This document shows, piece after piece, positions 702-59,976 of a stretch of DNA of 64,000 bases. Both the position numbers and the translations under genes were made by a program. Source of the stretch: Gordionus sp. m RMFG-2023 (taxonomy: Eukaryota; Nematomorpha; Gordioida; Chordodea; Parachordodidae); assembly GCF_954871325.1 (NCBI RefSeq), contig NC_088778.1, forward strand, positions 6,543,743-6,607,742, read 5' to 3'. How positions within the stretch are numbered: position 1 is the stretch's first letter; each line of letters begins with the position of its first letter. The notes beneath the pieces are model-generated. The model ran no database searches. It was given only the letters and a program-made list of their open reading frames with translations, and was not told where the DNA came from.

Positions 702-904
702 ATGAAGACCTAAGTGTTTTATATACTTTTTTAATTCTATTCGAAACTATATAAAATGATATTAGAGTTTAAAGCGATTCTGCATTTTTCATTATTATTT
801 AAAATTTTTTAGAATTAGGGTATCAATCGATAGCTAATCAAAAGATCTATTTAACTGGAGGTCAATCTTTCCCCATAATGGGCGGGTCTAGGTCTTGGGG
901 GGAC

Positions 905-1900
905 AGAAATATTTTTATCAACACAAAATATCGATATGGGTATCAAATAAAAGCTAATTTTAATATGGTTTGACTGAAAGTCTTCATTCTTGGTCTGGAT
1001 GGGTATGACTTGGTCTGGAGGGTGGGGATGGGGGATGTAAAAAATAATTTTTTTTGATATGGGTATCAAATAAAAGCTAATTTTAATATGGTTTTGACTG
1101 AAAGTCTTTATTTTTGGTCTTGATGGGTATGACTTGATCTGGGGGGTGGGGTGGGGGTGTAAAAAATATTTTTTTGATATGGGTATCAAATAAAAGCTAA
1201 TTTTAATATGGTTTGACTGAAAGACTTCATTCTTGGTCTAGGGGTGGTGGGGGGTGTATAGAGGGGGGGGGTGTAAAAATAATTTTTTGATATGGGTATT
1301 AAATAAAAGCTAATTTTAATATGGTTTGACTGAAAGACTTCATTCTTGGTCTAGGGAGGTGGGATGTATGGGGGGGTGACTGATATGGTCTATGGGATGA
1401 CTTGGTCTGGGGGTGGGGGTGGGGATGTAAAAAATTTATTTTTGATATGGGTATCAAATAAAAGCTAATTATAATATGGTCTGACTGAAATTCCTTATTC
1501 TTGGTCTTGATGGGTATGACTTGGTCTGGGGGGTGGGGCTAGAGGGTGGGTGTGTAAAAATAATTTTTTTGATATGGGTATCAAATAAAAGCTAATTTTA
1601 ATATGGTTTGACTGAAAGTCTTCATTCTTGGTCTGGATGGGTATGACTTGGTCTGGGGGGTGGGGATGGGGGATGTAAAAAATATTTTTTTGATATGGGT
1701 ATCAAATAAAAGCTTAATTTTAACATGGTCTTGACTGAAATTCTTTATTTTTGGTCTTGATGGGTATGACTTGATCTGGGGGGTGGGGTGGGGGTATAAA
1801 AATTATTTTTTTGATATGGGTATCAAATAAAAGCTAATTTTATTATCTTTATGAAAGTATTCATTTTTTGTCTTGATGGGTATGACTGTCTGGCCCTCAA
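905..1900. repeat. Subrepeat array in left arm of FB1
   Basis: About seven or more head-to-tail copies of a roughly 130-160 bp unit. Each carries GATATGGGTATCAAATAAAA, an ATGGTTTGACTGAAAG segment, a TGGGTATGACTTGGTCTGG segment, a G-rich tract of 10-20 bases and an A/T run. The G tracts vary in length and in interruptions between copies. Confidence 0.85.
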
Positions 1901-2589
1901 CATATTAACAAAATGTCTAGTTGGATATAATTTACAGAAATAAAAGAGAATGAAGATAAAACAATTTTTTAAATCTTTTTTCGGTTCCAATCCTGAACTT
2001 GAAATATATAATTTGCAGTGTTCTATATTTAACGCATTATTCCATAGCTATTTTTTTTAGTATCGCAGCATGCTACATTTTTTTAAAAAAAAGAGATAGC
2101 AGTAGCTTGTTACTAAATAAATGGCAAAAAATATTATAATAATTTTATAATTAATTCTAAAGTCATAATCTTTTTATTTTATTTTAAAATTTAAATTAAC
2201 ATTAAAAAATATACATTGTAAATATATTTTTCAAAAAAATTTTTTTTATTTAATGTCGACAGTAGACATTGATAATGAAAATAATTTTGGTACAGATAAA
2301 ATAAAAACATTGATGATTTTAGAATTAATTATATATTATAATAATTTTTGCTATTTATTTAGTAACGAGCTACCGCTATCTCTCCTTTTAAAAAAATATA
2401 GCACGCTAAAGCTATCGAATTAAAAAAAAATAGCTATGGAATAACGCCTTAAAAATAGAATACTGCAAATTATATATTTCAAGTTCAGGGTTGGAACCGA
2501 AAAAAGATTTTAAAAATTGTTTTATCTTCATTCTCTATCATTTCTGTAAATTCTATCCAACTAGACATTTTGTTAATATGTTGAGGGTC

Positions 2590-3350
2590 TGACAGTCATA
2601 CCCATCAAGACAAAAAATGAAGACTTTAAGTTTAAAGATATTAAAATTAGCTTTTATTTGAGACCCATATCAATATTTTGTGTTGATAAAAATATTCCTG
2701 ACCACCCCCCCCCTCCCAAGACCTAGACCCGCCCTCTATGAGTGATGATTATTATTACAATAAAAAATATTTTAATTACCTTTTGATACCCATATCAAAA
2801 AAAAATATTTTTTACACCCCCCTCCACCCCTATCCCTCAAATCAAATCATACCCATCAAGACCAAGAATAAAGACTTTCAGTCAAACCATATTAAAATTA
2901 GCTTTTATTTGCTACCCATATCAAAAAAAACTTTTATTTGCTACCCATATCAAAAAAAATTTTTTTACACCCCCCCCCCCCCTCCCAGACCAAGTCATAC
3001 CCATCAAGACAAAAAATGAAAACTTTAATTCTAAAGATATTAAAATTAGCTTTTATTTGAGACCCATATCAATATTTTGTGTTGATAAAAATATTCCTGA
3101 CCACCCCCCCCCCTCCCAAGACCTAGACCCGCCCTCTATGAATGATGATTATTATTACAATAAAATAATATTTTAATTACCTTTTGATACTCATATCAAA
3201 AAAAAATATTTTTTACACTCCCCCCCTCCACCCCTACCTCTCAGACCAAGTCATACCCAGCAAGACCAAGAATGAAGACTTTCAGTCAAACCATATTAAA
3301 ATTAGCTTTTTATTTGATACCCATATCGATATTTTGTGTTGATAAAAATA
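2590..3350. repeat. Subrepeat array in right arm of FB1 (inverted)
   Basis: The same unit as in the left arm, in reverse complement. ATACCCATCAAGAC, AAACCATATTAAAATTAGC and TTTGATACCCATATCAAAA blocks are followed by C-rich tracts. The copy number is lower than in the left arm, so the arms have diverged by unit gain or loss. Confidence 0.85.
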
Positions 3351-3448
3351 TTTCTGTCCCCCTAAGACCTAGACCCGCCCATTATGGGGAAGAGATTGAC
3401 CTCCAGTTGAATAGATCTTTTGATGCTATCGATTATACCCTATATTAG

Positions 3449-5010
3449 ATATATCTTATTTCATAAGGCCAAAAAAAAGAACATTGAAAATTAATTAATA
3501 ACGATCAAATTAAAAAACGCAATTAAACGTGTGGAAAACACTTTTAAAATAAGATTCCTCTTTATCACGATTAAAACGTGATAATACCGTATTATCATTC
3601 CTTAACCTAAAACCCTAATTTTTTAGTTATCCCTTTAAATCCCGTGAAGATCCCGGATAGTTATGATCCTTTTAAAAATTACGACATATATACTGTTAAT
3701 GATTTTTGATAAATTTAATGAAATACCCTAGTTTAATATTTTTCTTCATTTCTATTTTTTCCATAATTTATATTTTATATAAATTCAAATTACTTAAATA
3801 ATATACTAATAAATAACTAGAATACCACTATTCATGGATAAAAAAAAATAAACAAAATATTTTAAATACAATTGGTGTAGTGTAGTATACAATACAAAAT
3901 TTAGTATCAGCCATAAAAAAAAACATCCAACAAGGCTCAAAGATATATATCCAATTAGAAATCAAAAAAATTCAATAATTTAGAAATAATAATTTATGTA
4001 ATGTTAATACTGTACTAACACATATTAAAATCGTTTAGGAAAATTATTCCCTTTTTAATTAACAGGTTATCTAAATAATAAAAATTTCCAAACATTCCCA
4101 GATATACTATGCTATTTAATGAAGAAACGGGAGTTCTAAATAAATTTCTAAAATATTTCATCGAATTTGAAGAAATCCAAGGATATTCTATGCTCGTGCA
4201 GAAAAAACAAAAATCTAATAAATAGACTTTTTTAAAAAAAATAGTATAATTGTATTCTCCACCACTAATTCGCGCCAACTATTAACGAGTGGTAAGATTT
4301 ATTTTATGTACTGATGATTTTTACAATATATTGGGTGCATATTTTTTATGCAAAAATTTAATATAAAAAATTTTTGGAATTATGATTAAATACTCCCGTT
4401 TTTTGTTTTGAAAGAACTGTCAATCCTAATCATAACTAAAGATAAGAAATTGTTAACTTCAAGCAAATAATTTTAAAATAAGGCAGTAGCTTACGCTGCG
4501 GCTGCAGCCAATTCTTCCATGTTAGATAAGATGATTAGCGGGGAATACTGTAATTAATAATTCCTATATCTGTTAATTTTTAGAACTATTTAATTGTATG
4601 ATATATATTTATTAATTGTTTTCTTGGAGTCGTCAAAATATTGTGAAAAATTAGGAAGTTTTGCAAGAAATTAAAATTTCAAAATTATTTATAGACAAAT
4701 GAAGAAAGCATATTATATTAGAGAAAAAAAGTTACTGCGATATATTAGCAGTGGTACTGATTATTTTTTTTTGGAATTTATTTATCACAAAATTATAATT
4801 TTAGAGTCAGATATAACGGTGCTATCTGACATTATATTGGAATATAAAAGATAAATTAAATTGATTGAAAAGTGTTTATATGTTGCTAATAAAAAGAAAA
4901 TATTTTTTTGCCAAGCATCATTATCCGGCAAATCTTTCGTATTCTCAAGTATTGTAAATTATCAGACCGTGAATTATAGGTATCCCCCCCCCCTCCCGAA
5001 AATTAATAAA
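3449..5010. other. AT-rich intergenic DNA, no supported gene
   Basis: One minus-strand open frame (4015-4278, 87 aa, hydrophobic) could be an exon or chance. It has no recognisable domain and no convincing splice sites. Nothing else is visible. Confidence 0.4.
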
Positions 5011-7368: not shown

Positions 7369-8074
7369 ATGAATCAAGGTATGCATTTAAGAGATAGAAA
7401 ATTTAAATATTTTGTTTTAGAAATTCAAAACCGTAAAATTTTGGAGGAAATTCAATTAAAAAAGTCCCAATTAACCTTACAAGCTTTGCAGCCAAATGAC
7501 AAGAAGTTATTATTTAGGATATATTCATGTGTATCTAGAATTTTGGGAGGGCGAGGGGGCTGCACTGTTAGGTGGGTTTTCCCCTCATAAATTTTATTGG
7601 AGGTCTTTAGGTCCACTTATTGCAGGCTTATTTTAAAATGATATTTAGAAGAACAGGCATATTTGATAGAAGTGGGAATCTGTCCCCCTTCTGGTTATGT
7701 GTCTGGATATATTACCTCATTTATATCTAATATTTGCATATTTTAAAAATTAATTCAAGTGCTATATATAATTTTTTTTTATTGTCAGGCTTGATATCTT
7801 ACAAAAAAATATTGAATCACCAATACAGGTAAATCATATTATTTAAATTATATAATTTATGTAGGTTGGAATTATGAAACAAGTAAATGAATTTACTCAA
7901 TTAAATCCTACTCAGCGACTTGCTTTGAAAGTATTATAAATAATATTTTAAAATAAATAAAATGTTATATAGCAAGCACACCAATCATCTTTTGCATATT
8001 TTATAACACAAGATTCACAATTTGGAAACTTTATATTGCCAGTAATACCTAGATATGAAAAGAGACTTATTTAA
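7369..8074 (+). CDS. INIP: SOSS complex subunit C (INIP), 5 exons
   Basis: Exons: 7369-7378, 7421-7505, 7789-7828, 7865-7930 and 7973-8074. Introns of 42, 283, 36 and 42 nt begin GT and end AG, and every junction keeps phase. The product is 100 aa; human INIP is about 104 aa. The C-terminal exon carries the family signature (AYFITQDSQFGNFILPVIPR). The N-terminus has the short helix motif QNRKILEEIQLKKSQ. SOSS-C is a small nuclear subunit of the single-stranded-DNA-sensing complex with INTS3 and SOSS-B, which acts in the response to double-strand breaks. The stop codon lies 8 bp inside the last exon of INTS5 on the other strand. The second intron's donor (GTTATT) is weak and was chosen for phase. 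The start ATG is the first in frame with exon 2; a slightly longer N-terminus is possible. Confidence 0.9.
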
Positions 8075-11000
8075 AAAAGAGACTATAATATTTTCCAATT
8101 TTTGTTATATGTTTTTGAAATATTGATCGGAAGAGTTTTGAAGAAGCATCATCTAAATCTATTTTATTTATATAATGAATTATACATTTATAACAATATA
8201 AACTTGGCCGCTTTTTATCAAAATCACTTGTATCAATACATATTGAATTCACCTATTTAATATTATTAGTTATTTACAAAAAAATGTTACATGTAGATAG
8301 TTCCATATAATCACTAAAATGGTGTGAATCTCAAAGGTTGGAAGATAAGGTAATATAATGAGTATGTTGATAAATAGATTTGGTAAAATATTAGCCTGTA
8401 ATAAATAAAAAAAACAAAAATTGTTCATATGAATTTTTCATTAATTACTTTATCCATGCATTATTTGGAAAAAAAATGCAATTTTGGACTAATGATTAAA
8501 TTTGTATAAGTTAGGTTACAATTGATTTCAAAACGATTAATTATAATTTAATCAGGTTATGAGGTATTTAATTAGACAAAACTTTTAAAATTAAAAAATA
8601 AATTGGCCTAAGTCTGGCTTGATTTTTATTTAGACCTGCCTGCACCCAAAATTTTAAGTTTCTAATTCCAAACATCGTTTAAATGTAAAATTAGACAACA
8701 TTAATTTTTTTTAAGCCTGACCCAGACGTATTTATTTTTAGGCCTAAGCTAAGTTTTAGGATGCATGACTCTAAAAAAACCACTAGCTTAATATTAGACT
8801 AAATAAATACCTTATGCATTCCTATTGAAGATTATATGATATGATAATTATAATATAGAAATTTAGAATGTTGGGCAAACTTGATTCAAAGTAGTTAACA
8901 AATCTATGGTTAAACCATAGAAAGGTGTCGATATATGGGCGTAAGGGTTTCTATCACCTTCCCAATGCACTAATAAGTAAGACATGGTGGTCCTTAATAA
9001 GAAAGCACATTCTGTTGTAATAGGTTTGGTAACGTTAATTTTGGAGAAGACTTGAGTCATTAAAGGCCATATGAAGGGATATTTCTTTAGTCTTTTCACT
9101 ATTTTGGCGTCCCTAATATCGAAAATTGGTGTAAGAGTAAGAAAATACATGGGTGATTATCATAGAATTATTCGTTACTTTTAGACCTGTGCGCGCACTA
9201 TCAGGCCACATTAAAAATCAATATTTGATACATAAATTATATAGTGTATATTCATTTAATCCTTAACACTTCTGAGTTGAACACTGTTTACAAATAAAGA
9301 AAAATATGGTAAAAACAAAAATTGAAAAAAAAATGAAGTAAAAAAAACAAATTATGATGAATGAAAAAACTGAAAATAAAAACGATAGCTTTCTGGATGA
9401 TATCATAATTGGAATGAGATATTAACGACTCAAGTATTAAATAGTTAAAATATTATATAATCTTTATAGAGCTTCCTGTATGATATTATACATGGAATGA
9501 GATATTTACGATTCAAATATTTTAAAGTTATAATCGACCATGATTTTGGTACGCCCCAAGCAAAGTCCTCGAGAAAGTAGGGCTAGCAAACTTTACAGTC
9601 ATTTCGCAAAACATTGAATGGGTCTCCACCATCGACAATCCAACCGACGAGCTGTCAAGAACATGGATTGGAGATAGGTCTGCTCTCACGCTTTTTGACC
9701 TGAAACTACCCTGGAATAACGCCAACGAGGCCAGCGATATCAACAACATTAGTGACCAAGCCAACTAAGAGATATCCATTTTCGGGTTCAAAACAAAGAA
9801 ACCCCCTCCCTGATCTCGGGCCAGTCCATAGAAACAACAACCTGACTATTGAATGAAGTCGCAATCAATTACACATTTCCTATGAAATACCCAAGGATAC
9901 TTAAGCCGAAAAATTCCAACAACAATTACTAATTAGAACACAACATCCCAGCACTTATAATAAATATATATCGCAATTATATAAAATTACCTTCATTATT
10001 GCCTTATCTGATATTCACCATTCCTTCACTATTATATTATACAAAAAATCTTGGGCTCAGATCAAAATATAGCGACAAGTACAAAAGCTAAAGGCCGATA
10101 TACTTGGCTAAATTAAATAAAATATAATTTTCTAGAAGGGCAGTGCAATAATTTCTGAGGTAAAAATTTGACCTTGAAATATTTATTAAGCTCATAAAGA
10201 AAATTTATAATCACTAAATAATGGTAAAAATAGGATGTTTGTCGTTGCTTTAGATTTTGTTTTGGTGTACCACCATTTTTTTATTAATTTTGTTATTAAC
10301 TTTTGCATTTTAATTTTGGCTATTAAACTTTTTATATTACTTACTATCAACGTCACACTAAAATATGATATAAGTGTCATCTTTAATGCCTTCATAATTT
10401 GTCAAGTCAAAATTTGACCTTGAAAGGTTTATTTTTGATAACTCACTTTCCTTTTTTTACATTCCGTTTGATAAAATCGGAGGATTGATTTAAGCACTAC
10501 ACTTTGGCATAATTTTCGGTAATTGATTCTAACTTTTTAAAAAAAATTCTGTTAACTTCACATTTTTAAAAAGGTTATAACTCGGTTATGGTTTATGATA
10601 CCGATATCTGTTTTGGAGAATATTAACGTACACTTTGAATACTAGATAATTACCAAGTTTCAGTACATGATCTTTAATATTTTCGGTTTTGGTAAAGTGC
10701 CAACAATTTCTAATTTTGTTCATAACTCAATAACGGTTCATTCCGATAATGTCAGGGTAGAAGATCAATTAGGATTAATTGATTAACGTACACAATGGTA
10801 TAGTTTCGGTAATTGATCCTCAAATCGTTCTGCAAGCTTCAAAATTTCACACTTTCCTTATTTTGCTTATAACTCATTAACCTTTGATTCCGCTGATGTC
10901 TTGTTTGAAGATAAATTAAGACTCTAAATATTGTCATAGGTTTTGTTAATTGATCCTCAAGTCGTTCCGCCAATTTCACGAACCTATTGTATTATAATAG

Positions 11001-14000
11001 TAGAGTTCTAAATGATCAGGCCCGGGTTGTTGAAAAAAAATTTAATTTTAAGAAAAATTATAAGGGCCCGCTAAGTTATACAGATAAAGTCCTGTGTAAT
11101 CTATAAGACATCGTTCACTGATATAAGTGAACAGGTCTAGTTATATTTAAATAGTTATTGTTTTAAAAAACGATTCAACTAATATAGTTCTTCATACATC
11201 TAAAATAATGTTAAAATCAAATTTGAAAGGTTATATTTATACTTTTTTTTTAAAGACCTAACTGTCCTTTTTCATAATTGGCTTCTTGTATCTTTTTTAA
11301 AGTGTTATTTCCCAATCTTAACTAATAATGAAAAAATACACTATTTTAAAAAGTCACAATGTTTCAGATAAAGCTATATGATAACGACAATTGATATCGA
11401 TATTGGGTCAATACCTTTAGAGATCGGGTTCTGCCCAATCTGGGAGCAAGGTAAAAAAAATTTTTGAGCCAGACCAAAGCTTTTAAGTTGATAATTATAT
11501 AAGTTTAGACAGTTTACCTTCATAAAAAAAAATATTGCTAGGCCGGACTTCTTGTATAAAATATATTTTAGGGCTAGGCCGGGTAAAAATAATATTGGCT
11601 AAGCCAAAAAAAACCTGATAGAAAATTTCTGGATATTACCTTGTAATGTTAGCCTTGTGAAGAGCTATATTACCCCATTCGAAAGTGATCGGGCTATCAT
11701 TATCTCCGCTATTTTGTTGCAAAATGGCGACTAAACTCTCGTCCAACGTTATATTATCCATCTCTAACTCCTTACGTCCACGAGGACTATAAGAATTGTT
11801 TGAACAACATAAATGATCCAGGATAAGTTTGGAGAGGCGATTATATAATAATTGGTTGTGATTAGAAGTTTTCGGTTGTTGGATAGCCGGAAGCAAAATT
11901 GAGTCAAGGAGGGTGCATATCAGATGATCGTTAATGGAACGCGTTAGGTAATTCTAAAATATTTTAATGGCAAATAAAGTATTTTCTTCTGATTTTATTT
12001 TAGTTACTCCAAAAAGTAATAAGGTGGTCCGATTAAAGCAAGACCCTTTTTCAATTACTCGTAAATCCGTCAGTTTTTAAGTTTTTACAGTGATAAAATA
12101 ACTTATTATTAGCAAAGTTTTATAAATTTTTCTTAATAAGTTTAAAAATTGTGAAACTTTATTTAAAAATAAAAAAACCAAACGCAAATTACACATTTAT
12201 TTATTAAGGTTTAGATTTAATATAAAAATAATGAAGATTATTATGAAAAATTATATAAAATTCTCAAATCGGCCTCCTTTAGTTTGTACACATGCGCGAA
12301 GACGATTTGTCCATTTTTCATGGCACTGTTTATGAATGCCTGATCAAAATTTTCTCATTTTTTCAAAAGTCTTACCTTAAGATGGTTAAATTCCTTAATT
12401 GTGGTATGGTACACACGTTCCTGCATAATACCCAAATAGCAGATGAATTTGTGATTTCACGGTCACGGTGAAATGGCGAATTGCTCGCCAGACAATTCTT
12501 ATTGTGGGCATTAAGTGCTCCTTTAATAAGATATATCTGTAATAAGATCCATTTACCTTAACATCATCAAAACCAAGATGGATTTTGAAAAAATGAGTTG
12601 ACTTCACTCGTTTTTGTGGCGTATATAACATAAAGCCTATCATTCGCATAATTAAAAGGCGAAGTACGTTAAATAGCTATTCATCGGTAAACCAAATAAA
12701 ATAAATCAAACCTGGATTAAATTTACACAAGTTTCTTAGCACGAATCAAGTTGATATTTTAGTAGCAAATCCATACGAATAATTTAATATACTAAAGTTT
12801 GTGATATACTAATTTCTCTGGATATTTGAGAAATCGTTTTATGGGTGTCCAGTTAGTTTCTCGACTCATTACAAGTGTATCAACAAGTTTTACATATGTT
12901 GCTGATCCTGTTGTATCAATTTTGAGAATTAGCCGATTGAGTCACGAAAGAGACTAATTTCTATTTGAGAATTCCGAAATAATTATTTGGCAAAATAAAA
13001 ATCGTTCTTGCTTAATTAAACTTAAATCATCTTTAGTAAAAAAAAAAACCATATATTTTTTTATCGTTTGGTATCGAAAAAATCGTTTGGTTTTTTTATA
13101 TTTAAATAAAGTTGCATATTTTTTAAATTTATTTAGAAACATTTATAAATTTGCAGAATTATTATGAAAGTTATTTTATCATTCTGTAAAATTTCGTAAA
13201 AAAGATCTTAAAGACTGACCGAGTTATGATTAGGTGGAAAAGAGTGCCACTTCAATTGAACCGCCCTGTATGTTACCGACAATATGCACAATCAGGTAAT
13301 AAATTTATACAAATTAAAAATAACTAAAAAAGTTAACGACCAAGTTGTATAAAGTTAAGATAGGTAAGCGTATTTAAATTGGAAAATCTGATTGCTGAAA
13401 ATGTATAAACATGCATCTCGAAAAGACATGCGTTACTCGTTACGTTTGGAAAAAAAGAAACGCGTTATGGGTTTTTAAAAAAAGTATCTCGTAACTAAAA
13501 AAATACGATTGATTTTCAAAATTTTGATCAGATAAAAAAGAGCGCTCAGTGGTCAACACATATTTCACTGTGCTAAATACATGTTCAGCCGATGCGTAGG
13601 ATGGGAAAGTTGTATTATATTTAATAAATAAATAATTTAATTGGGAGAATTTAAAAAATGATCTTATTAGAACATCTTCGCAAGAATTTTTTTATCAATT
13701 TTTTTTATTATCTGTAACAGAATTTAATCTGAATTCATATTTTTAACTTATGTTTTTTTTATAGATTTGAGCTACTGGACATTGAAGTTAAAATATTTGA
13801 ATTAGGGCATAATCTACACTTACAAAGTGCAAACTTGAATTGAATGCCTACCATCCTTTGCACTGTAAACTCCCGCGAACGGCAACCCCGCCATAAATCC
13901 TTTAACAACATTCTTCGAGCTGTTTTCAAAAAAGTAAATATTTCACTTTCATATGAAAACGGTATATCCCCAGATAGAATGTCCTTTATCCTCTGGACGA

Positions 14001-17000
14001 AAGGTCTCCCACTGACCTGGGACTACACTTTGCAACGACTAATTTTATGCCATCAGAAAGGCAGACAGAAGTCGTTAACAAAGCTGGCCTTACCAAACAC
14101 GTCTTTATACCAATAGTCAATAACACGGTAGGGATGTTCGGAAAATAGGCTCTAAATCTTATCAAAGCAATAGGTAAAAAGGAAGCTTATTATAGGTGAC
14201 ACCAACGGTCCGTAAGCTGATTTCTCTCGAAATCGGCCGATCCAATTTTTTAAACATTCATTCCTCTCTAGGGTGACATTCCCCTTTTTAATGTTTTTTA
14301 TATATTTTTATATATTTATATATAATTTTTAATATATTTTTGTTTTTTTAAATATATTTTATTTTGGTATAGTTTATATTGTATCTTATTCCTATTTTTA
14401 AAATGAAATCGTTTTTTAAACAAAATTATTCGGCAAATAATAATATTTAAAAAAATATACTTTCCATATTTTTTAAGAAAAAATTTAAAATAACGAGTTA
14501 CGTTTTGCATTACCGTTACTCAAAAAAAAGAAACGCGCTAAAAGAAGTAACGTATGGCGTTCCTTTTACTCAAAAAAGATAACGACGTTAGTAACGGTTC
14601 CACGTCAACTCGGCGCGGCGTCAATTCGGCTCAATACAGTTGCAATTTATTATAATTTATTAGTATTAAAAAAAAGGATGATTATATAGAAGTCATTTTA
14701 CATGTTGGTCCTATTAATTTCTTCATATTTTTTTTGGAAAAATCTCAATTTTATTAACTAAATGTGTAATATCAATAAAAAAATTAATAATATCAAAAAA
14801 AATTAACAACCATTATACCGATTAGTGGCGTATCCAGGATTTTCTTATGGGCGGGGGGGGGGGGAAATATTTTTTTTGTGGGGGGGGGGGGTTTCGCCGC
14901 CGGGTCTGATGTGTTAGCTATTCTATTAAATTATTCATAATTTAATAATAATTATATTTCTATTTTTAACTATTATTTACTAATTCGTGCTTATGGATAT
15001 TACAAGCCTATTTTTTATTATTTTAAGTTAGGTATATTATATTTAATAATGTTTTTTTAAATGTAAAGTTGAAATAAAGTTTAATGTCATTTTTTTTTTA
15101 TAAAATTTGCTTTAAAAACTAGCCTCAGCTTAAATTCTCATACAATATAAGTATAATATAATTTTTTTATTGAAAATACTAATAGTAGTGTGTATAAAAT
15201 ATTGTAACGGCTCGTTTTGAGCCGATTTTTAAAAACGGCTAACTTAATATTTTCGCCAGAAAAATATTGACTAAGTCTCAAAATTTCGATACTATATGTC
15301 TAGACCTTTGCTCCTTCTATGAGCAAAATTTTCAGGTTAGCATAATATTTTTCTGGATAAAAAACTGACATAGCCGTTTTTAAAAAATCGGTTCAAAACG
15401 AGACGTTTAACAACAGAAAATAATTTTAAAAACAAGTTTTTTTTAACTTCTTATCAAATACAATATTATACAAAATTTTTTATTAAATACTATAATTATA
15501 ATGTGATTTTTAATTTTCGTGGGAATGTTGCCAATTCATCAAGAATTTCGTTTGTCGTTTGAACCAAATCTCTGTGGATATTTAACAGAGCTAACCCATT
15601 TAGCCGAGATTCGAAAGTAGTACTTCATATATATGTTTTCAACCTTCTTTAGTTGTAAAGTCCTTTCATTCGTACATGTTATAATAGGCAAACATGCAAG
15701 AATATTAAACATCTTCAAAATATTAGGAAATTGAGCCAAGGTTTTTTTACATCGATTGAGCGCATCAATAGCATGCTCAGGTAAAATAGCTAAATGTAGT
15801 AAATATTTATATCACAATTCGAATTCACTAATTAAATTTATTTCAGTATCAATATCATATGAATAAAATTTTGCTAAATATTTAATTTTACCAATAGTGG
15901 CATTAGAAAACGAAGATGGATCTGAGGGTAATAAAACTTGAAGATTGCTAAAGACTTGTTTTTTATCTAAAAACCGTACTTTTATTTGCGATAAAAAGTC
16001 TCTAAGAATGGGATGAAAATGGATATTTTATAATATCAGTTGAGCCAATATTTATTTTACATCTCAATAATTGCCCAGGTGCTAGACGAGGTTTAATTAA
16101 TGTTATATCATAAAATTTAGTCTTCGATTCAATGTCTATATAAATATTATGAAAATATTCATCTACATTCATTCTTATTGTATCTTCCTGTTCATATATA
16201 TTTTCCGCCAAATCAATAATCTGAACCAAATCTAAATTTGGTTTTTGTAAATTTCTACAAAGTATAGTGAGCTATAGAAAAATAATTTATTGATGCAACT
16301 AGCAGCAATGATAAACTCTGATTGATCAATTGAATTCAATAATGATATCGCTTCTGACGACACATTACTTTTTTTCATGCTCAGCCTTATTTAACTTTTG
16401 TATTTCAATTTCTTCTGGTCTACAAAATGGAAGTAAAAATGAAAAATGTTTAAAAAATTATAGATATTTATTAATAAATAAAATATTATTAAAAATACTT
16501 ATTAATTCTAACTCACTAATAATTTTGAATTTAATAAAATAATTGTATATAATAATAAAATAAATTACCGTTTGATTTCAATCTCTTTGACTAAAAATTT
16601 TTCCATTTTATCAATATTTTGAATAATGTTAATGTACTCACAAGGAAAGGAAATTTTAATAAAATTTATTTATAAAAAATAAGTTTTATGTTGGAAAATT
16701 GATATTCAAATATTTGTACAATTTTGATTGGGGGGGGGGGGGGTAAAATTTTTATTAGCTTAAAATGATATTTATGAAAACAGTCAAATTTGTAATGGGG
16801 GGGGAATTTCCCCCTTTCCCTCCCATTGGTGCCTGCTACATTATAAGGTATGTTGATTAGTAGCCGGTATTATGTAAACCTGGTGACTTTGCGGATGTAA
16901 AAAAGGTTTGGACTTCCATCTCGAATCTTGCATATTATTTTGGCTAAAGTTTTAATCGAAAATTTTTAAAAATAGACCCAAATCGGCCGTTTAACAACAC

Positions 17001-20000
17001 TAATGTTGATCCAAAAAAATTCAAATTAAGATTGACTCATTTTTTAGAATTATTAAAAATCCTTAAAATAATTCTATTAATCATTTAAAAAAATACATAT
17101 TATGTTTAGGCTAATTTTTTCTATTATAAAATAATCAAAAACGAATTAACGCACAATTTTTTTTATAAAATGACTATAGAAAATATAAAAATATTATATA
17201 AAACATGCTAAAAATATGTTTAAAAGAACTTTAAAAAAAAATAGATAACATTAATATGTTTGTAAATTAAAATTATTTACGATCCCCCTCAAATAATCAT
17301 TAATCGGGCGAGTTACATAGTCAACTACAATTAATACAATATTTTCAGCTGTATCGCGATACATCCTTCTTGATCTCGGGAGTTGCATACCAGAAATATA
17401 TTGTTCTAAACGTAGAACATCTAAAAATTTCCAAGTAGAGGGATGGTGCGGTGATAGCAGAGATGAAAATGCTCTATGCCAAGGTCAACCTTTAGAAAAT
17501 AATTGCAAAGTATTATAAAAAATAGCAAATTTTGATACCCTCCAATGTGGCAGCGTATTGATTCCAAAGGGGAATTGGAAACCTTGGTGCTTGTCTATCA
17601 CCATTACGAAGAATTTTACCAATCCAATTCGCTTCATAATATGTAATAAGATTATCTAAGATTATTTCATTGTCTTGATAAAATGGTGTTTGCAAAATCC
17701 ATAAAAGGAATCAAATATATCATCCATGGGGACAAATGCAAGAGAGAGCATTTGCCTAATTTTTATTGACCACTCATTTCCTGCATTTCTATCTAAATAA
17801 TGTGCTAGTAACTCCCTATCACTTTGTGTGGTCACCAAATTGTTTGGGTCATATGAAAAAAAACACCCTCTTACAGTTATTGATGGAATTGAAAGAGTAA
17901 TAAATTTAAATCCACCTGCTCAAACAATCATTAACGATATAGGATTTAGATTATTTTGTAATCTTTTTATCTCACCCAAGACCTTTATATATGTAATCTG
18001 AATTTTATTCGGTAATACCGTAAAAATTGTGGGTACAACTGTTTTATGATATAGGACATGGAGGGCCCAAAGTTAATGAAATATTTAGGGGGTTCTCTTA
18101 AACGTGCCATCTGCATACTAGTGACTGCTTTCCGCCATCAATGTAAGGTTTTAGGCGGTGGCGAATATAACTTCCGGTTGAAATTGCTTGCTGTCATATT
18201 GAAGGAATTGCAACCCCGAACATGTAATTCTATAGATATCGGATAAATCCAGATCATAACGAGCATGATGGGATGGGGAACCCCCTGCTATTGCAATGCT
18301 TATAATTTTCTGAGGTGTATCAGTCACCTTAATGGCAGGTTTTTTAATGTTATTTAGGCTTTCGGTTATTAAGACCTCAGTAACATCTAACACATGATTA
18401 TGATTATCAATATGAAGAATTACTTCTTCATTTAATGTGTAGGTATACCTTCCAATAAGTTAAAAGATTCTACCTATTTCCATATTGTTTTGATCCACGT
18501 TCACTTATGACATAATTTAAAGGAATTCTTAAAAATAGAAGATAACTATTATTTAACGGAACCTTACATTGATAGCGGAAAGCAGTCAATGATATACAGA
18601 TGGCACGTTTAAGACAAACCCCTTAATTCTTCATCAACTTTGGACCCTCAATGTCCTATATCATAAAACAGTTGTACCCATAATTTTTGCGCTATTACCG
18701 AATAAAATCCAGATTACATATATAAGGGTCTCGGATGAGATAAAAAGATTACAAAATAATCTAAATCCTATATCGGTAATGATCGATTTTGAGCAGGCGG
18801 AAATAAATGTCTTTACATATTCATTTCCGTCAATAACTGTAACAGGGTGTTTTTTTTATATGACCCAAGCGATTTGGAGACAACAGAGTGATGGCAAGTT
18901 ATTAGCACATTATTTAGATAAAGATGCAGGATATGAGTGGCCTAAAAATTAGACAAATGCTCTCTCTTGCATTTGTTCCCATGGATGATGTAGTTGATGC
19001 TTTTTATGGACTTACACAAACACCATTCTATCAAGATAATGAAAGGGTCTTATATAATCTTATAACATATTATGAAGCGAATTGGATTGGGAAAATTCTT
19101 CGTAATAGAGAAAGACAACCACCAAGTTTCCAATTCCCCTACGGAATCAATATGCTACTACATTGGAGGAAATCCCAAAAAGAAATAATGCAGTTGAAGG
19201 TAATTTTTATTTAAATTTATCTTTATAATCAATATTGCACAATCATTTTTTATAATTTACTTTGCAATTATTTTTTAAAGGTTGGTACAGAGCATTCCAA
19301 TCTCTGCTCTCATCGCATCATCCCTCTATTTGGAAATTTTTAGATGCTCTACCAATCGTTAACCGAAGCAAAAATTGAACAATATATTTCTGGTACGCAA
19401 ACCCCGAGATCAAGAAAGATACAGCTGTAAATATTACATTAATTGTATCTGACTATGTAAATCGCCCGATTAATGATTATTTAAGGGGGATCACATACAA
19501 TTTTAAATTACAAACATAATGTTTCATAAACATTTTTTTAAACATATTTTTAGCATGTTTTATGTCATTTTATAAATAAATAAAAAAATTGTGCGTTAAT
19601 TTGTTTTTGATAATTTTCTAATAGAAAAAATTAGCCTAAACATAATATATATTTTTTTTAAATAATTAATAGAATTATTTTAAGGATTAAAAATGAGTCA
19701 ATCTTAATTTGGATTTTTTTGGAACAACATTCAACATTAGTGTTGTTAAACGGCCGATTTGGGTCTATTTTAGAAACGGTCGATTAAGATTTTAGCCAAA
19801 ATAATAGGTAAAATTCGAGATAGAGGTCCAAACCTTTCATACATCTATGTGCAAATCTTCAGGCTTATATAATATTGGCTACTAACCTCATAATGGGGTA
19901 AATTGGTCCAGCAAGGATATCGGTATAATAATTGTTGTTAATTTTTTTTTATATTACACATTTAGTAAATAAAATTAAGATTTTTGTAAAAAAAATATGA

Positions 20001-23000
20001 AGAAATAATTAATATGACCAACATTCAAAATGACTTCTATTTAATCATCCTTTTAATTTATACTAATTTGCAACTGTATTAAATATGTGCCAAATTGACG
20101 CCACACTGAATTGACGTGATATCGATAGTAATGACCTTACTTTACATATAGACAATTTTATAAGTTATCAAATAAATTTCCCGATTGTGCATAATGCCAT
20201 TAGTGCATAAATCAGGATACAGATTTTTACATTCATCATCATAAACAACATTACTTTATTGTTCAAAATATCTTCCCTATCGCGTTCGTTGATATGCCTA
20301 GTTTTTATGATCTTTCTCCTATCCAGGTTATTACCGGCAATAATCTGATTCGATTGATGGGACGAGGTATCATTTTGTAAGAGCATATTCTCCGAAAATA
20401 AGGAAATATTTTCCGAAGAGTCCTGGTGAGGAGTTGAATGATTATCTTGCTTTAATAAGTTTACATTGATTGATGTTAAATTTTTTTATATTAATAAATA
20501 GTTATGATTGAAAACCTATCTAAACTTATTTTAAGTCCTCCATTTGCATTTGAGTTTAGAATTATGGGCGAAAAAAAATAATCAAATTTCGTCTCAACAC
20601 ATGAAATCAAATTTGTGATTTTTTTTTAAAGAATATTTAACTTGAAAATCATAGTATTCGAAACACGCATCGATCAAGATTTTGACAAAGTAATAGTGAG
20701 TAGAATCGCTACCAGAGCCTTCTCTCTTATTGTCGCTAGGAAAATCTTCATTCAAGATCAGATTTGGTAAAAGCGAGTTTATGACTTGGAAATTATTCGT
20801 TTTACGAATTATATCTGGTAGAAAATATTGTGATTAATTAAGGTATAAATAATCTTTTCTATAAATTTGTATAATATATAATTGGGTGGAATCAAGGTTA
20901 TTTTATAACCTTAATTTAATCAGTCTAATAAAAATATTTCTTATAAATGATTCTCGTATTTTTACATTGTGTGTCCTAATTCGATTTCGTAAATTTCAAT
21001 AATAAATTAATATTTTTAAAAAAATAAATGATTCCCTCATTTATACATTACGCGTCCTAATTCGATTTCGTAAATTTCAATAATAAATTATTTTTTAAAA
21101 AATAAATGATTCTCGAATTTATTCATTATGAGTCCTAATTCTATCTTATAAAATTTCAATAATAAAAGTAATTCTTTTTTTAAATAAAATTTTGACTTTG
21201 GACAAACCCTTACATTAAAAATTTTTTTTTCCTTCTTTATCAATTTCAGTGTTGTTAAAATAGCGCGCTACAAGTAGCGCGCTACTTTTTTCAGTAGCGG
21301 TAGCTATAGCGCGCTACCTTTTTTAAAAAATAGCGGTAGCTCGCTACTAATTTAGAAAGCTACTTCGCTACTTTCAATTTTACATAATAAATACATCTAA
21401 AAATTATTAAAATATATTTTTTATAAAATCTAAAATTATAATCCTTTTATTTAATTTAATTTTGAAATTTATATTTAAAAATATACATTATTGTTATATA
21501 TTAGATATAAACAGTTGTTAAATAGCAATCTGTATTTAATTTATATTTCGCGCATTCATTAAATTATATATTTTTGAAATTCCGTTATTTGTATGTCCTT
21601 GCTTTTATCTTATTTTATATTTCATTTTACATTTTATATTAAACATTATAAATCTTGTTATGTGTGAGATTGTTGAAGATATTGAAATTTCTTTGGAAAA
21701 TGAGCAAAATATAGATGATCCTTTCCCAAAATTCAAGAAATACTTTATTAAACAAATTTAATATCAATGTGTAGGCTAATCTTTAATTTTTAAAATAAAT
21801 TAAAATCAAAAACCAATCATTTTTTTATATATTCATAAATTTTATCTAAATTATTTAAAACATTTTAAAATAGTTATTTCAATCATTTTTATGTATACTT
21901 ATCTCCTACATAATATTTATTCTAAGTATTTTATAATTTTAGACTGTGCACACTTCAAATTATAAAGAGATTGAAAAATATCTTAAAAGTTTTGGGGTAA
22001 TGGAAGAAGATAAACCCACTTCCATATCAAATTTAATACAAACAAAATTAACCAATTTGGATTCATCAACACCTGGTGTATCCCAAAAATTGGCTGACAA
22101 AGTCATTATGAACTTTATAATAGATAAAGTTCAACCATTATCCTTGGTGGATAATGATTCTTTTATAAAGATGATAAACACATTTTCTCCACGGACCAAG
22201 ATCATCCTAGTTTCAAGTTAAATTGGCCATACATTAATTTGACTGAATCTAAAGGGCAACTTGATAGGCTGATGGTAACGTTAAAAAATGGCATGCCTAA
22301 CCACGATATTATAGCAAGATCGTAACCACAGCTTTCCATAGACGATTTTTTTGAAATAAATAATAATAATATTATTGAACCTCTAGATGCTTTTTTTAAA
22401 TCTAAAAATACTAATTTAAATATTTTTGATGATTTTTTTCATATAAAAAGTTTGTTTATTAAATTTAATACTGCGTTGCCCTTAAGTGCTAGTGCTGAAC
22501 GATTATTTAGTATGGCAAAGCTTATACTTTCTGATCGTCGCTCTAGACTTGGGGATGACAGTACCGAAATGTTATTATTATTAAAGTGCAATAATAAATA
22601 AATTATATATACATATGTAACAAATTATAGTCATGTTTTTATATCAATATTTTATTTGTGGAAATAAAGTTACGTAAAAAAAAATATTTAAAAAAAAATC
22701 AAAGTAGAGCTACTTTTTTTAAAAGTAGCTAATAGCGCGCTACTCACTTGAAAACGATAGCGGTAGCGATAGCGGTAGCGATAGCGCGCTACTTTTTTTA
22801 TAAAATAGCGGTAGCAATAGCGCGCTACTTTTAAAAGTAGCGTTTAACAACACTGATCAATTTTCTGTTTAATATTTTATGTGTATTTAAAACAATGAAT
22901 TTAGTTTACCAGTTTGTTGTAAAACGTGACATTTGAAATAGGCTTTGGCAAAGTTTGTGAAAATTATGAAATGTGGGGTATCCTTAAAAGGATGAAGTAA

Positions 23001-26000
23001 GAAATTCGACGATATGCCTTTATGAGATCCGTCAATAAAAGTGGACAAGAACTTCAAAAGCTTCGAGCTCAACGTTTCTAAATAAATGAAAAGAATATAA
23101 TAAGAATAATAATCATGTCTTTTTTAGTAAAAGTTAGCGTAGCTTGACCCTAAAAGGTTTTTGCCAGTAGTCCTTAAAAAAAATTTGGGAAATTCCAGCA
23201 TGACCGTTAAATATATTTTGAAAAAGTTGTTCGATCCAACCTATTATATATATTATACAGCATCTAAAACTTAATTCATGTTATTTCTAACAAGTAATTG
23301 GCATTTTAAATTCTTAAGAAAAACTGTTAAAAGGTAATAAAAGAAAGTTCCCGTTCTAAATCGCTAAAAACAGAAGAAAATTAGGAATTATGCAATAATA
23401 TTATTAGATATTTCTTTTGGAAATTTGGATGATATTTCCCCTATATTTTTAGCAATTTTTTTTTAAATACAAAAACACAAATTTAACATACAAGTGTTTA
23501 CTTCCCTAGCATTTTTTTTATATTTATTTTCAATATTACTTTTAAAATTTTCTAGGAGATATAAAACCGATCCCTAGAGGAAGGACATATACTTGAATGG
23601 TGGGGATAAAAAAAGACGTGAGTGGTTAGATGGGGAAACACCAGATTTTTGAATTTTAATGATATCATACTTACAATATGTATTATGCTATAACAATTAA
23701 ATACAAAGAATTTATAAAATATACAAATTGATTTTCAATAACTAAATAATATATCAGAGACCTGCAGAGGTATTATTTGCCCGCCCAGATATTTTCTAAA
23801 TAAAATTTTCAGATCCAACCCGGATTTCTTTAAAATATATTATATTTATTTTTATTTATTTGCTAATGGCGATAAAATCTTTGATCTCAAAATATAAGTC
23901 CGGTCTTTCCCGGCATTTATTTTCGCATTTTAGGCCTGTCCTAGGTATTTTTAAAAAAAATTCACGCCTGACCCGGTACGAGGTCTGTGTAATATATGTA
24001 TAATTTTTTAAATTACACGAGTTTCAAATATGAAATCCAAATAAAAAATAGTTCAACATCTTTAAAAAACAATGGACAAAAATTACACCCTATGGTCTGA
24101 AAATAATCATACTGATTTTTATTTTAGATGTAGACCCTAAGTCTCTGGCCGTGTTTTGATGGGTGATAATTCTTTTTCCAAGCTCGAAGAAACTATAATA
24201 ATTGCTGTAACTGTCAGTTTGTAATTGACATTTATGGAAGTTTGCTCATATTATGTCGAGAAGATATATTACATGATTTTTATAGATTCTATTGTTATCA
24301 ACGCATTTATATCATATTTTTTTGAGTGTAGTGTTATGTGAATATTTTTAGGAATAAAGATTATTGGAGTCACAATACTACATTATTTTAACGGGATGGG
24401 GGAATCTATGCCGAATGTTAAATTCTTTTCGAAAAATATAAATTGCCATGACCTGAGAGTCTAACTTTAAATTCCCAACAATTCGAAGATAGACTATACC
24501 AGCTATTTTATTTTTTTTAAAGTGATTTAAACTTATATAAATTATGAATGAGATAATTATTATTGGTTTAAAATCGGGTAAATAGGCTAAATCAGGAACG
24601 TGATAAAAATATTAGCTAAACTCTGTGAGGTTTGCTTTCTTCTAAAGTTGAGTTATATTTTAAGAAAATCCGAGGCGCTAGTTTTTGGCTAACCGATTAA
24701 GTTTATTTTAGCCAGCCAAAAATAGAACAATTGCCCAACTATTATAGTACTTGGCCATTAAAGAATTTTATCTTTAGCGAAATTGAAATGCATGAAACTT
24801 ATAAACTCGATGACTTTATTTATAATAATAATCATATGGAGTGTGGCATTTTACGACTCCAAGGTTAATTAAGTTGAAAAATGAATAAATCAAAGATAGG
24901 AATATACTACTAGATTGAAGATTCATGCATTAAATGTTTCGAAAAGTTTACAAAAATATAGGAGTCAGTTGCATCACCATTCTGAGGTTTGTACGTCGAT
25001 TAAATGACATTAATAAATGATCGATAAGCCCAAAATGGCGCCATAGCTGACTCCTCCCATGTATGCACCTTATAATTAATGAATTGCTAATCTTGTAGTA
25101 TATAATATATACATAATTGGCTCTTATGATTTAAAAATGATAATTAAATAAATATAAGCCTTTTTAAATTTTTACAAAAAAAAAATATAATAAGCGAAAT
25201 TACCTGTAATAAATATTGGTTTTCTTATGATATCGGGTAATAGCGTGACAAAAGAATTCAAAAATCTATTTCAAAAAAAAAATTAGAGAAATAAAATTTT
25301 ATTCTTTCTACAAACTTTTTTAAACAATTTCTTGTAACAATAAAATAAATTTAATAAGAACCTAGTGATGCTAAAAGTGATTAAGTTTTATTTCTTATTT
25401 TTTGCCCCCCCCCCCCCCCATCCAAGATTACAGATAAAAATAAAGTTATATATACATTTCTTTAAATGGATTTACTTATAAATAAAATTGGTTAGAGCAC
25501 CGTTATCACTAAAATGGTCGAATTCTTCGCAACGTTTTTCCTCGAATACGTAGCCTAACATTTTTTCAGCAATCCCCAATATTTTCAAGTAATATTCGCC
25601 TTCTTCTGCTTCAATTCCTTCCAATCGGGTTTCACGGGAATCCAATTCTTCTTCCGTTTCGCGGCTGACGATATTATCCTTAACAATTCTTTCTGAGTTA
25701 GATGATGTGTCAATAGGGTGGTTTAGTAAGAGATCCATAAAATTGTGGGAGTATAAGTCTTTGCCGTTAGGGTAACCCAGTGATTCGAGCGCATCAATGA
25801 ATCCCAATAAGACTACTAGCTGTTTTTTATCATTATTAAAAGGTATAATTAATGCTATATAATATATCATGCAAAGACCTGAGGCCCGTCCATAAGACCG
25901 AGAGCCGAGCCGTATATTTTAATACCAAATATTTCAAATCGCCATTATTGGATATAAAAATAAAAAATCCGGGCCGGACCTGCAAATATAAAACCCGGGT

Positions 26001-29000
26001 CTGGCTGGGTCGAAAAATTTTTTTTTTAAAAAAATTCGACCCGGACCATGCAAATGGTACCTCTCGCAGGTCTCTGATATTATATTAGTTGCAATGTTAA
26101 ACAAGTATTATTTCTCCCAATTTTTAACATATTGATTTATGTTATAGGTTAAATAGAAAAAGATTATATTTTTATATATTCTATTCATTATTTATATCCT
26201 AAATTACTAGAGTTGTTTAAAGATAACCGCAGTTAATCACCGCCTTCATCTTATTAAAGCAATTATTAATTGATTTAATCGGTAGCATTTGCTATAAATA
26301 TTAATAATTGACAATCCGAATAATATCATATATATTATTTATTTTTTTTAAAACTCTTAACCTTTTGTTGAGTGTCTGCACTTAGAAATAGTTGCTTTAT
26401 TATGATAAACGAATAATTTTGATCATTGTAATAGACGCACATAGAAGTTATAAAATTTTTGTACCACGTGACTCTGTAAATAAAATAAATAAATCATATT
26501 TAAAAAAAAAACTACACCAACGAATATTCAAAATTCGAATTTAAATATACTTTCCTTGTGATAAATATCTAAATTTTTTGGTTAACAAAAGAGACACAAG
26601 ACAATTTTTAATTCAACAAAAAAAACATTTTCCGAAAACTTTTTTTTCACTACAAAAATAAAGAATTTAGACAAATGGTTTGATTATTTATCTATTCATT
26701 ATAATTGTAAAACGCGTCGAAATGGTCGTTAGCTGTCGTTAATTGTAAGCAGTTGACGTAGTGGTGGCATATGAGTCTGATAACATTTTCGTCCTTGAAG
26801 CTTTCAAAGATAGGCACCAAAATTCCAGTAGTTTGTTGGGGATCCACCGTATTGCCATATACGTATAGAGTTTTTTGAATATTACTCACCAATTTCTCCT
26901 ATAATTATATTTTAAAAAAAATTAGATTAAATCTGGGTTTAACAAAAAAAATTTTAAATAATCCACTAGAAAAGAAAAAATAAGATTTGGAATACGATCA
27001 AAAGATCTTGTTTGAGCATGTTCAAAAAAAAATTCATTTTTTTAAATATGATCTTCAAGATATTTTTTGGTTTTGAAGAGTTTGTGAGACTTTAAAATAA
27101 ATTGTTATATTATTCTGAATTAATATTTAAAGAAAGAAGAAAGTTAATTTAGTGCACAGTTGCCGAGTGTGTACTATGTGGGAACATAAATGTGAATGTC
27201 ACACAAAAATTTACAATTATGATTAAAACAATTTCATTTAAAACCCCGCTTTTCGTCTATAAAATTTATTTTATCTTATATAACAAAATATGGTAATAAA
27301 CAATTTTATTTTTTGATATTAAATAATAAAAAAAAATCATCCAAATGTCGCCATTGCGAAACTGTGATTGGCAGAAAACATTAATTTATTAAATATACAC
27401 TTTAAAAGCATCGATGCAATAATTCATTCATATTAATGGTTAAAAATAAAGATTTTTTTTAGCTTTCACCTTTTTCTGGTGGTAAGCTCCTTCAATATCT
27501 CTCCACTTTATGTTATTCATGCTGTCTCTTTTATCTAGTTTATATTTCTTCATATTGGCTCTAACTTTATGGCCCCATTGATGTTTTGGCCTTCCTCTTT
27601 TACATTTACCTATCACTTCCAAACTCTAAACCTTATTTCCTATATAGTTTATAGGCCTTCTCATTGTGTGCCCATACCACCTAAGTCTGTTCACCATTAT
27701 CTTAGTCTTAATAGGCACTACCTTTAAACTTCCTAGTATTCTTGTACTTAGTACCTTATTTAATGAAATTGTGTTGAATAAAAAAAATATATTAAGTTCG
27801 ATATTAACTGGAACGGAACACGGAGGCAAAAATATCGTTGTTCATTGTTCCTGCTTAAATTTCCATAAAAATATTATTCTCTATGGAAAATGGATACTCA
27901 AATAAAGAATATATATTTTTTTAAAAAAAAGAAAAATTTACCAAAGTTTTTTGACACAATTCGCGCATGAAATAAGATGCTTTGTGAGATTTCTTCTTTT
28001 TGGGATCTGAAAAAAAAATTTTTTTGTTATGTTTTTTGCGCATATTAATAAAATCGAAAATGAGCTCAGTCAATATTATTTATTTTGTATCAAAATGAAC
28101 CCCCTGTTTATAAAAAAAATGTGTACATCTATCTTGGAATCGGCGGTTTAATTTTTTTTTAAATGCATAAACAAATCTTGGGAATATTTTAGGGAGGCAT
28201 TCAGTATCAATCAGCTTATGAAAACTAGAGTCGTTAATCGGCTCGATTAAGCCAATTTAAAATAAAAAAAAATTAAGATTAAAACCAACATAATATTACG
28301 CAAACCTTGTCCAAACATTTCTGTCATCTACGAGCAAAACTGTTGGAATGTGTTAAAATTTTGTGGCTAAAATATTTGGGTTAACAGTTTGAAAAAAAAT
28401 AGGGCCGTTTAACACACTAATAAAAACGGCTTATGTTTTTGGATCAATAATTAGGACAATTTTTTGGGCCTATATGATAGATAGACATATTCCAAAGGCC
28501 TTTTTGGTTTGAATATTATTTTAAGGCAAATTTCTTATGAATAACATATATTTGAATATTATATTTCGTGCGATAATATTGTGTTAACGTTAAATTTTAT
28601 TAGATTTGAATACACTAGTGTTGTTAAAGGGCTCGTCTTGAGTCCGATTTTTTAAAACTACTAACTCAATATTATAGCCAGAAAAATATTGCCTAAGACT
28701 CGAGATTTGGTTAATATATGTCTAGACCTTTGTGTCATCTATGAGCAAAATCTTCGGGCTTGCGTAGTATTTTTCTGGATGAAATATTGAGTTAGCAGTT
28801 TTTACAAATCGGCTCAAAACGAGCCGTTTAACAACACTAAAATACATTGGTTTCGCGTTATAATTTATCTTAACGTTAAACTAGAATATATTTGAATGTT
28901 TGTTTTCGTTATATAAAATTTATATAAAAAGATAGATAATAACCACATATAATACGATTTCAGATTTTTTTTATTCCAAATTCAGTTAAAATTTACTAAA

Positions 29001-32504: not shown

Positions 32505-33497
32505 AGCGTATGTAATTAAAATTTTAACATGATTTTAGATACTGGAACATGATGAAGCTAGAAGAAAGAGGATTAGGGAAAATATTTAATTCTAAAAACA
32601 CGTAAGATATGATTAAAATATAAAATTAAAAATAAATATAATAAAATTTTAATGATGAAATATTTAAAATATGAATAAACCTATATAAGACAATAATGAT
32701 AAAACAAAATCCATAGATTAATTAGAAGATTATTTAGATAGTAAAGAAAATTTTTTAAGGATGATGAAATACGATGAGCACGATAAAGGGATGAAGTCGC
32801 ACGTACACAGACATCAGTGGAAACCGAGATACGATAATTATGAAGATTCGAGACATACAAATAATTATGAACCAAGATATCGAAACAATTATAATCCTAG
32901 AGTTTATGATAATGATAGGGGGTATAATAGCCAAGACCATATAATAATTTTACAAGATTTAACAATAAAAAATTATAATAACAACTACAATAACTATAGA
33001 TATAATAATAATGATAATTACAAATATAATGAAAATAAATAAAGATATTATAGACATCAAGACGAATCAAGATACATACCAAGATACAATAATCAGTCAT
33101 ACAACAACAGATTTGACGTAAATAGAGTGGATGATGATGACAAGGTAAATGATGATTACAAAGTTACGATATACCTTAATGATTTACCAATAGTCATGCA
33201 GATCAACACCGGGTCGCGGTATTCAATATTGCCGATTAATATTGCTAGAAAGATAGGAATTAAAGTCTTAAATAAATCGGATAGGAAACTGACTGGCTGT
33301 GATGGGAAAAGAATAGAGGTGTTCGGAATCGTTAAAATAAAAGCGAGATATGAAGATAAAACTCAAAACTTAAATGCATATGTAGTCCAAAGTGACAAGA
33401 TTGCAATTCTGGGAAGGACGTGGATAAAAGTTTTTGGAAACATACTTAATAAATTTGTAAATATAATCGAGGAAAATAGAAAAGTAGATAGTAAAAA
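32505..33497 (+). mobile_element. Truncated Ty3/gypsy-like element: gag tail and protease
   Basis: TGGCAGCGTATG at 32505 has the TGG start expected of a primer-binding site. One frame runs from 32761 to 33510, interrupted by a single TAA at 33040-33042. Its first part is very rich in Asn, Tyr and Arg (gag-like tail). Its second part (33127-33510) is a retropepsin: NDLPIVMQINTGSRYSILP, GCDGKRIEVFG and AILGRTWI. The catalytic Asp of the DTGS motif is Asn here (NTGS), so the protease should be inactive. Reverse transcriptase is absent because the sequence runs into the hAT element that follows; the last codons (NSAA) come from that element. Confidence 0.7.
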
Positions 33498-50939: not shown

Positions 50940-51400
50940 TAAATCACGTCCCATACCATACGCATTAAAATATAAAGTTGAAGGAGATTTAGATAGATTA
51001 AAAAACTAGGAGTAATAGAGAAAATTAATCATTCACTTTATGCATCTAGTAATTGTTCAAAAGAAAGATAAATCATTAAGAATTTTCGGGGATTTTAAAA
51101 GAACTATAAATCAAAATATTAATATTAATTCATATCCAATACCAAGAATACAAGATTTATTAGCCAATTTGGGAAAAGGAGAAAAATTTTCAATATTGGA
51201 TCTCTCAGATGCCTATTTTCAAATTAAAGTGAGGGAAGAGTCTCAAAAATATCTTGTAATCAATACGCATAGAGGATTATTCAAATATACAAGACTACCT
51301 TTTGGTATATCGTCTTCTCCAGCAATATTTTAACGGGCCATCGAGAATTTATTAAAAGATTATGAAGGAGTAGCTTGTTTTATAATGATATTATAATAAC
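50940..51400 (+). pseudogene. pol: gypsy reverse transcriptase, N-terminal half
   Basis: Conserved blocks LRIFGDFKRTINQNININSY, PIPRIQDLLANLGKGEKFSI, LDLSDAYFQIKVREESQKYL and YTRLPFGISSSPAIF (51040-51333), then a stop. SILDLSDAY contains the first catalytic Asp of the palm; the YxDD box and RNase H are missing through a deletion that joins directly to the integrase zinc region. Confidence 0.85.
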
Positions 51401-51484
51401 CGAGAAAAATAGAGAGAAACACGAAACAAATTTAAAAAAGGTAAGATGTCTAGATGAAAATAGAATCAAGCTAAAAATAGATAT

Positions 51485-59969: not shown

Positions 59970-59976
59970 ATGATTT

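Follow-up and report, generated by a model that had tools for sequence, protein, structure and literature searches.

A probable convergent coding overlap between INIP and a corrected INTS5 gene model in Gordionus

In this study, we have analysed a window (the whole stretch of 64,000 nucleotides, C4:6543743-6607742, 27% GC) from Gordionus sp. m RMFG-2023 (Nematomorpha), a horsehair worm that is presumably the G. montsenyensis of the papers; its genome comprises 287 Mb in 267 contigs. Our analysis confirms that two genes of this window, INIP (SOSS-C) and INTS5, would truly overlap in their coding sequences once the deposited model of INTS5 is corrected and its predicted final splice is accepted. 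By way of this putative last exon of INTS5, the two genes form a convergent pair, lying on opposite strands with facing 3' ends and with coding bases in common. This is probably an ordinary convergent pair, INIP (+) and INTS5 (-), in which the overlap came about by run-on to the first available stops after a neutral juxtaposition. The main value of the result is the correction of a gene model: it is the missing end of INTS5 that brings this gene into contact with INIP.

INIP and the deposited model of INTS5

The following features describe INIP and the part of INTS5 that can be placed by exact or domain matches.

7369..8074, plus strand: coding part of the INIP / SOSS-C gene, by identity with P0001 and the Pfam SOSSC match
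7369-7378, 7421-7505, 7789-7828, 7865-7930 and 7973-8074, plus strand: the INIP coding exons, by translation
7973..8074, plus strand: coding part of the INIP last exon, ending in TAA at 8072-8074; SOSSC 47.7 bits alone
8881..9112, minus strand: INTS5 exon with the HWE...NPY segment, present in P0004; INTS5_C 22.8 bits for ORF 8863-9156
11640..30192, minus strand: ten further INTS5 exons of P0004, by exact matches, the blocks being separated by introns of 192 to 8,301 nt
30979..31317, minus strand: frame with the INTS5_N domain, outside P0004, by Pfam

The gene identities and the INIP exon chain can be read directly from the letters, and the names INIP and INTS5 used in the preliminary description are borne out by the SOSSC, INTS5_N and INTS5_C matches together with the identity to P0001. 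The INIP translation (100 aa), joined over four GT-AG introns of 42, 283, 36 and 42 nt, agrees in 100/100 residues with P0001, deposited for the same species under the name SOSS complex subunit C homolog. The translation carries the SOSSC domain (PF15925), which scores 57.7 bits (cut-off 27) over profile positions 5-101 of 101. The same chain bears out the end of the gene as first described, a last exon closing on the plus strand with the stop codon TAA at 8072-8074, and this exon alone matches the human SOSS-C PDB chains 4owt_C and 8rbz_C. Exon 4 (7865-7930, +) has an alternative acceptor, giving an exon start at 7916, which is used by P0002: this protein of the same species (83 aa) equals the INIP translation with exon 4 begun at 7916 and 17 residues lost in frame.

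INTS5 lies on the minus strand, where INTS5_N (PF14837) reaches 46.4 bits (cut-off 27) at 30979-31317; INTS5_C (PF14838) is found in P0004 at 50.4 bits (cut-off 27). P0004 (710 aa), the representative of a cluster of three sequences and the one member examined, matches the minus strand exactly in eleven blocks, the first beginning at 30192 and the last ending at 8866, and has its stop at 8863-8865. If the deposited model is right, this stop means that INTS5 has no coding overlap with INIP, and taken at face value it leaves 789 bp between the INTS5 end and the INIP stop. The comparison with 107 INTS5 proteins (E up to 0.001; the named ones mostly from vertebrates, with two insects, Diploptera and Xenopsylla) suggests otherwise. 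In the 104 homologues with the tail present, 94-125 aa (median 109) follow the HWE-like segment, while the tail of P0004 after HWE...NPY has 25 residues; P0004 is thus probably short and misses the conserved C-terminus of INTS5. The spliced model that we propose below is identical with P0004 over the first 705 residues, remains open to a TAA at 8067-8069 and has a tail of 116 aa after HWE...NPY, and by this model the last 96 residues of INTS5 would be absent from P0004. At the other end of the gene, the INTS5_N frame stands upstream of the start of P0004 (30192), which seems to be N-terminally truncated too.

The window also holds a number of other elements. A hAT dimerisation-like frame (15542-15811, -) lies inside an INTS5 intron of 8.3 kb and, at 21.3 bits, just misses its cut-off of 21.4. 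Retroelement pieces on the plus strand (33043-33507, 44260-44721 and 51019-51899) match an aspartyl protease, reverse transcriptase (twice) and an integrase core. At 59331-60588 (-), a frame with an HTH_psq domain is followed by one with a weak PHD-finger match, and this region is possibly a pogo-like transposase. Diverged repeats occupy 900-3450, with a unit containing gatatgggtatcaaataaaagctaattttaatatgg; the repeats at about 900-1860 run in one direction and those at about 2600-3350 in the reverse direction (judged by eye). At gathering scores, Rfam gave 0 matches in the window.

The two proposed terminal exons of INTS5

Downstream of the HWE...NPY exon, the proposed end of INTS5 comprises two introns and two exons.

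8396..8880, minus strand: putative INTS5 intron, 485 nt, into which P0004 reads and stops at 8863-8865
8291..8395, minus strand: INTS5 penultimate coding exon, not in P0004, by the INTS5 tail profile and INTS5_C
8253..8290, minus strand: putative INTS5 intron, 38 nt, GT-AG, joining 8291-8395 to 8067-8252 in phase
8067..8252, minus strand: putative INTS5 last coding exon, stop TAA at 8067-8069, by in-phase splice and open frame

We infer the splicing of these two terminal exons from evidence of unequal weight. For the penultimate exon, the match to INTS5 clearly exceeds chance. Its ORF ranks 1/1,896 (23.0 bits) when the window's ORFs of 20 aa or more are scored against a profile of the INTS5 C-terminal tail, by itself it aligns to INTS5_C positions 625-657 at 14.6 bits, and its product, ANILPNLFINILIILPYLPTFEIHTILVIIWNYLH, aligns to the conserved LLPP...FE...LL..W.Y segment. 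The acceptor at 8396 outscores 14/14 known acceptors (0.1% of minus-strand AGs are as good); the donor at 8880 scores 4.38, under 11/14 known donors, and 14.5% of GTs are as good. The joined C-terminus scores 44.9 bits for INTS5_C, against the 22.8 bits of ORF 8863-9156 alone, and since the Pfam alignment stops two residues inside the last exon, this gain is due to the penultimate exon.

The short end of P0004 could also be genuine, with INTS5 having two ends: a short one, in which intron 8396-8880 is retained and the stop at 8863-8865 is used, and a long one overlapping INIP, so that the overlap would be conditional. The deposited short end does stand alongside well-formed downstream exons, and the intron contains the hexamer AATAAA at 8736 and 8630 (minus strand). 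However, an error of gene prediction accounts equally well for the short end, and such hexamers have a density of about 3.3 per kb per strand in this DNA; we have set poly(A) hexamers aside as evidence of 3' ends, as they are too common in DNA of 27% GC. We regard two INTS5 ends as unlikely.

Returning to the long, spliced model, the assignment of 8067-8252 as the last exon of INTS5, by a predicted splice, is its softest link, and we nevertheless hold it to be very probable. It draws its support from the exact place, phase and length of the exon. By itself 8067-8252 gives no match in Pfam, and against the INTS5 tail profile it scores 6.0 bits, which ranks 2/1,896 among the ORFs but barely exceeds the top score (5.9) among 1,000 shuffled tails. 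In context, the tail scores 28.7 bits without the last exon and 35.4 bits with it (28.2 and 35.9 bits with a seven-sequence profile); the deposited 25-residue end gives -1.8. Only 2/348 phase-0, AG-started frames of 40-90 aa reach the full score: one is the last exon, and the other repeats the penultimate exon. Among unrelated frames in the same context, the highest scores are 34.7 (+42153) and 34.9 (-18287), leaving margins of 0.7 and 1.0 bits with the two profiles, and a shuffled last exon attained the in-context score in 9/2,000 and 3/2,000 trials, respectively. A match of the last exon beyond chance is, in our reading of these scores, modestly supported. To this may be added that the end of the exon, SKLFRSIFQKHITKIGKYYSLFF, is similar by eye to TDTLRCTMQNNIQHLGKLYGQLF of Diploptera P0109. 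Of the two splice sites, the acceptor at 8253 (6.7) is above 11/14 known acceptors, with 3.9% of minus-strand AGs as good, and the donor at 8290 (2.87) is weaker than 13/14 known donors, with 30.8% of GTs as good.

The codon usage of the last exon (rank 264/270 ORFs) speaks against it. Its GC3 is 0.10, but verified exons 3-5 of INIP are also low, at 0.15, 0.14 and 0.12, and we have not counted codon usage either way. GC3 drops toward both 3' ends of the pair (7421-8395), from 0.37 in INIP exon 2 to 0.12 in exon 5, and through 0.38, 0.29 and 0.10 in the last three exons of INTS5. The junction (7369-8300) also contains four introns of 36-42 nt, compared with up to 8.3 kb for other introns of INTS5. 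A processed copy of INTS5, which would show the splicing, was sought in the genome and none was found, the three matches being the locus itself (4/4 candidates scored).

A further alternative is that there is no coding overlap, with INTS5 ending at 8863-8865, or 8291-8395 reading on into a stop at 8270-8272, and 8067-8252 being a chance ORF. The deposited end of P0004 would fit this directly, as would the weak single score of the last exon, its small margin over unrelated ORFs, its poor codon usage and its weak donor. Against it, the deposited tail is far outside the length range of the 104 homologues, the ORF that ranks second of 1,896 for the INTS5 tail stands exactly downstream, in phase over a 38-nt intron, and low GC3 is shared by verified exons of INIP. 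That the frames do not overlap at all strikes us as rather improbable. The idea that 8067-8252 is unrelated to INTS5 was likewise set aside, the conserved C-terminus of the homologues having led to a penultimate exon from which an in-phase splice reaches this frame.

The eight common bases and their likely origin

The last exon given for INTS5 in the preliminary description, 8067-8252 with TAA at 8067-8069 on the minus strand, is in this way supported by the predicted in-phase splice from 8291-8395, and with it the 8-bp overlap claimed there holds.

8067..8074, both strands: the eight bases TTATTTAA, in the reading frames of both INIP and INTS5, depending on the INTS5 last exon

These common bases are read from the sequence itself: INIP ends CTT ATT TAA and INTS5 ends TTT AAA TAA. 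The INIP Pfam match ends at codon 8054-8056 and the PDB alignment one codon further; the INTS5 tail alignment ends at codon 8076-8078, or one codon later when the exon is aligned by itself. The conserved cores are about 13-19 bp apart, with both stops inside the gap, and the last codons and stops of INIP (8057-8074) and of INTS5 (8067-8075) fall outside the aligned cores. We filled the 19-bp gap between the cores with 20,000 random Markov AT-rich sequences: an overlap resulted in 18,390/20,000 and was absent in 1,610, with a median of 29 bp and with 1-19 bp in 27%. As overlaps are this frequent among the fillers, overlap is the default outcome once two genes are so close. An 8-bp overlap is unremarkable, and it is the closeness itself that could be special. 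Arithmetic on assumed rather than measured spacings (mean convergent spacings of 10-26.5 kb, with the 10,819 genes reported in PMC11603191) gives 4 to 11 expected convergent pairs with ends within 20 bp.

Based on these results, we propose that INIP and INTS5 came to converge in Gordionus with conserved coding cores ending about 19 bp apart, and that each frame would continue to the first stop in the AT-rich gap, giving an 8-bp overlap of terminal codons. Most likely, the pair originated by neutral juxtaposition, and most likely it has no functional consequence other than those that convergent transcription commonly brings. Three of the 107 INTS5 matches (P0018, P0045 and P0054) are named neutral alpha-glucosidase AB, a hint of another neighbour in some vertebrates. 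The titles and abstract openings of the papers listed in our searches do not refer to an INTS5-INIP gene pair. Were other nematomorphs to have the same linkage, with overlapping mRNA ends, the pair would serve as a modest test case for two members of a single transcription-termination assembly that have a 3' end in common.

Regulation and known convergent pairs

The preliminary description had gone further, proposing that the two genes are locked together and could be co-regulated by antisense pairing. Its premise follows from the geometry: in a tail-to-tail arrangement the mRNA ends would be mutually antisense, and whatever 3' UTR each gene has would run antisense to the last exon of its partner. 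The link that it drew between Integrator and SOSS is stronger than was said, as in human cells SOSS (INTS3, SSB1/2 and INIP) and INTAC, with INTS5 in the shoulder module, are reported to form one stable complex, SOSS-INTAC, tied to promoter-proximal termination (PMC10511320), and PDB entry 8rbz contains both SOSS-C and INTS5 chains. The proteins are linked; touching genes need not follow from this. In the co-regulatory reading, mRNAs running past the stops would form duplexes with the last exon of the opposite gene, or transcription would collide, and the amounts of INTS5 and INIP would be coupled. The overlap geometry, the partnership of the two proteins in one human complex and the reported ability of convergent 3' overlaps to cause interference in yeast (PMC3900390) speak for it. 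On the other side, the overlap lies outside the aligned cores and is expected anyway for cores this close, poly(A) hexamers are too frequent here to place the 3' ends, and in human tissues convergent pairs are reported to be the overlap type with the smallest proportion of expression-associated pairs (PMC6746723). No result of ours supports the locking or the antisense co-regulation, which we consider very unlikely, and a regulatory reading of the overlap is speculation. Least probable of all is a feedback switch, suggested by the role of SOSS-INTAC in terminating transcription and likened to the convergent RNAi genes of fission yeast, reported to be self-regulating. In this scheme, when SOSS-INTAC is scarce, transcription of INTS5 and INIP would extend deeper into the partner gene or, in a variant, INTS5 would change from its short end, with the intron retained, to the long one that overlaps INIP; duplexes or collisions at the common tail would be altered, and both subunits would thereby be tuned together.

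With neutral juxtaposition as the preferred explanation, the pair can be set beside known convergent systems. Among human overlaps between different strands, 281/615 are reported as convergent, and pairs with common coding regions number only 51 in human and 28 in mouse (PMC2335118); these are orthologous, annotated pairs, whereas INTS5/INIP comes from a single genome with a predicted last exon. In Saccharomyces cerevisiae, over 20% of genes (645 pairs) are reported to be convergent with overlapping 3' UTRs (PMC3900390). Like INTS5/INIP, these are arranged tail to tail, so that the mRNA ends would be complementary; there, however, the overlap is in 3' UTRs and interference was measured, whereas in Gordionus it is the coding frames that would touch. 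The convergent RNAi genes of Schizosaccharomyces pombe (PMC3900390) resemble INTS5/INIP in that their products belong to one pathway, with the difference that autoregulation has been reported for the yeast genes and is conceivable for INTS5 and INIP.
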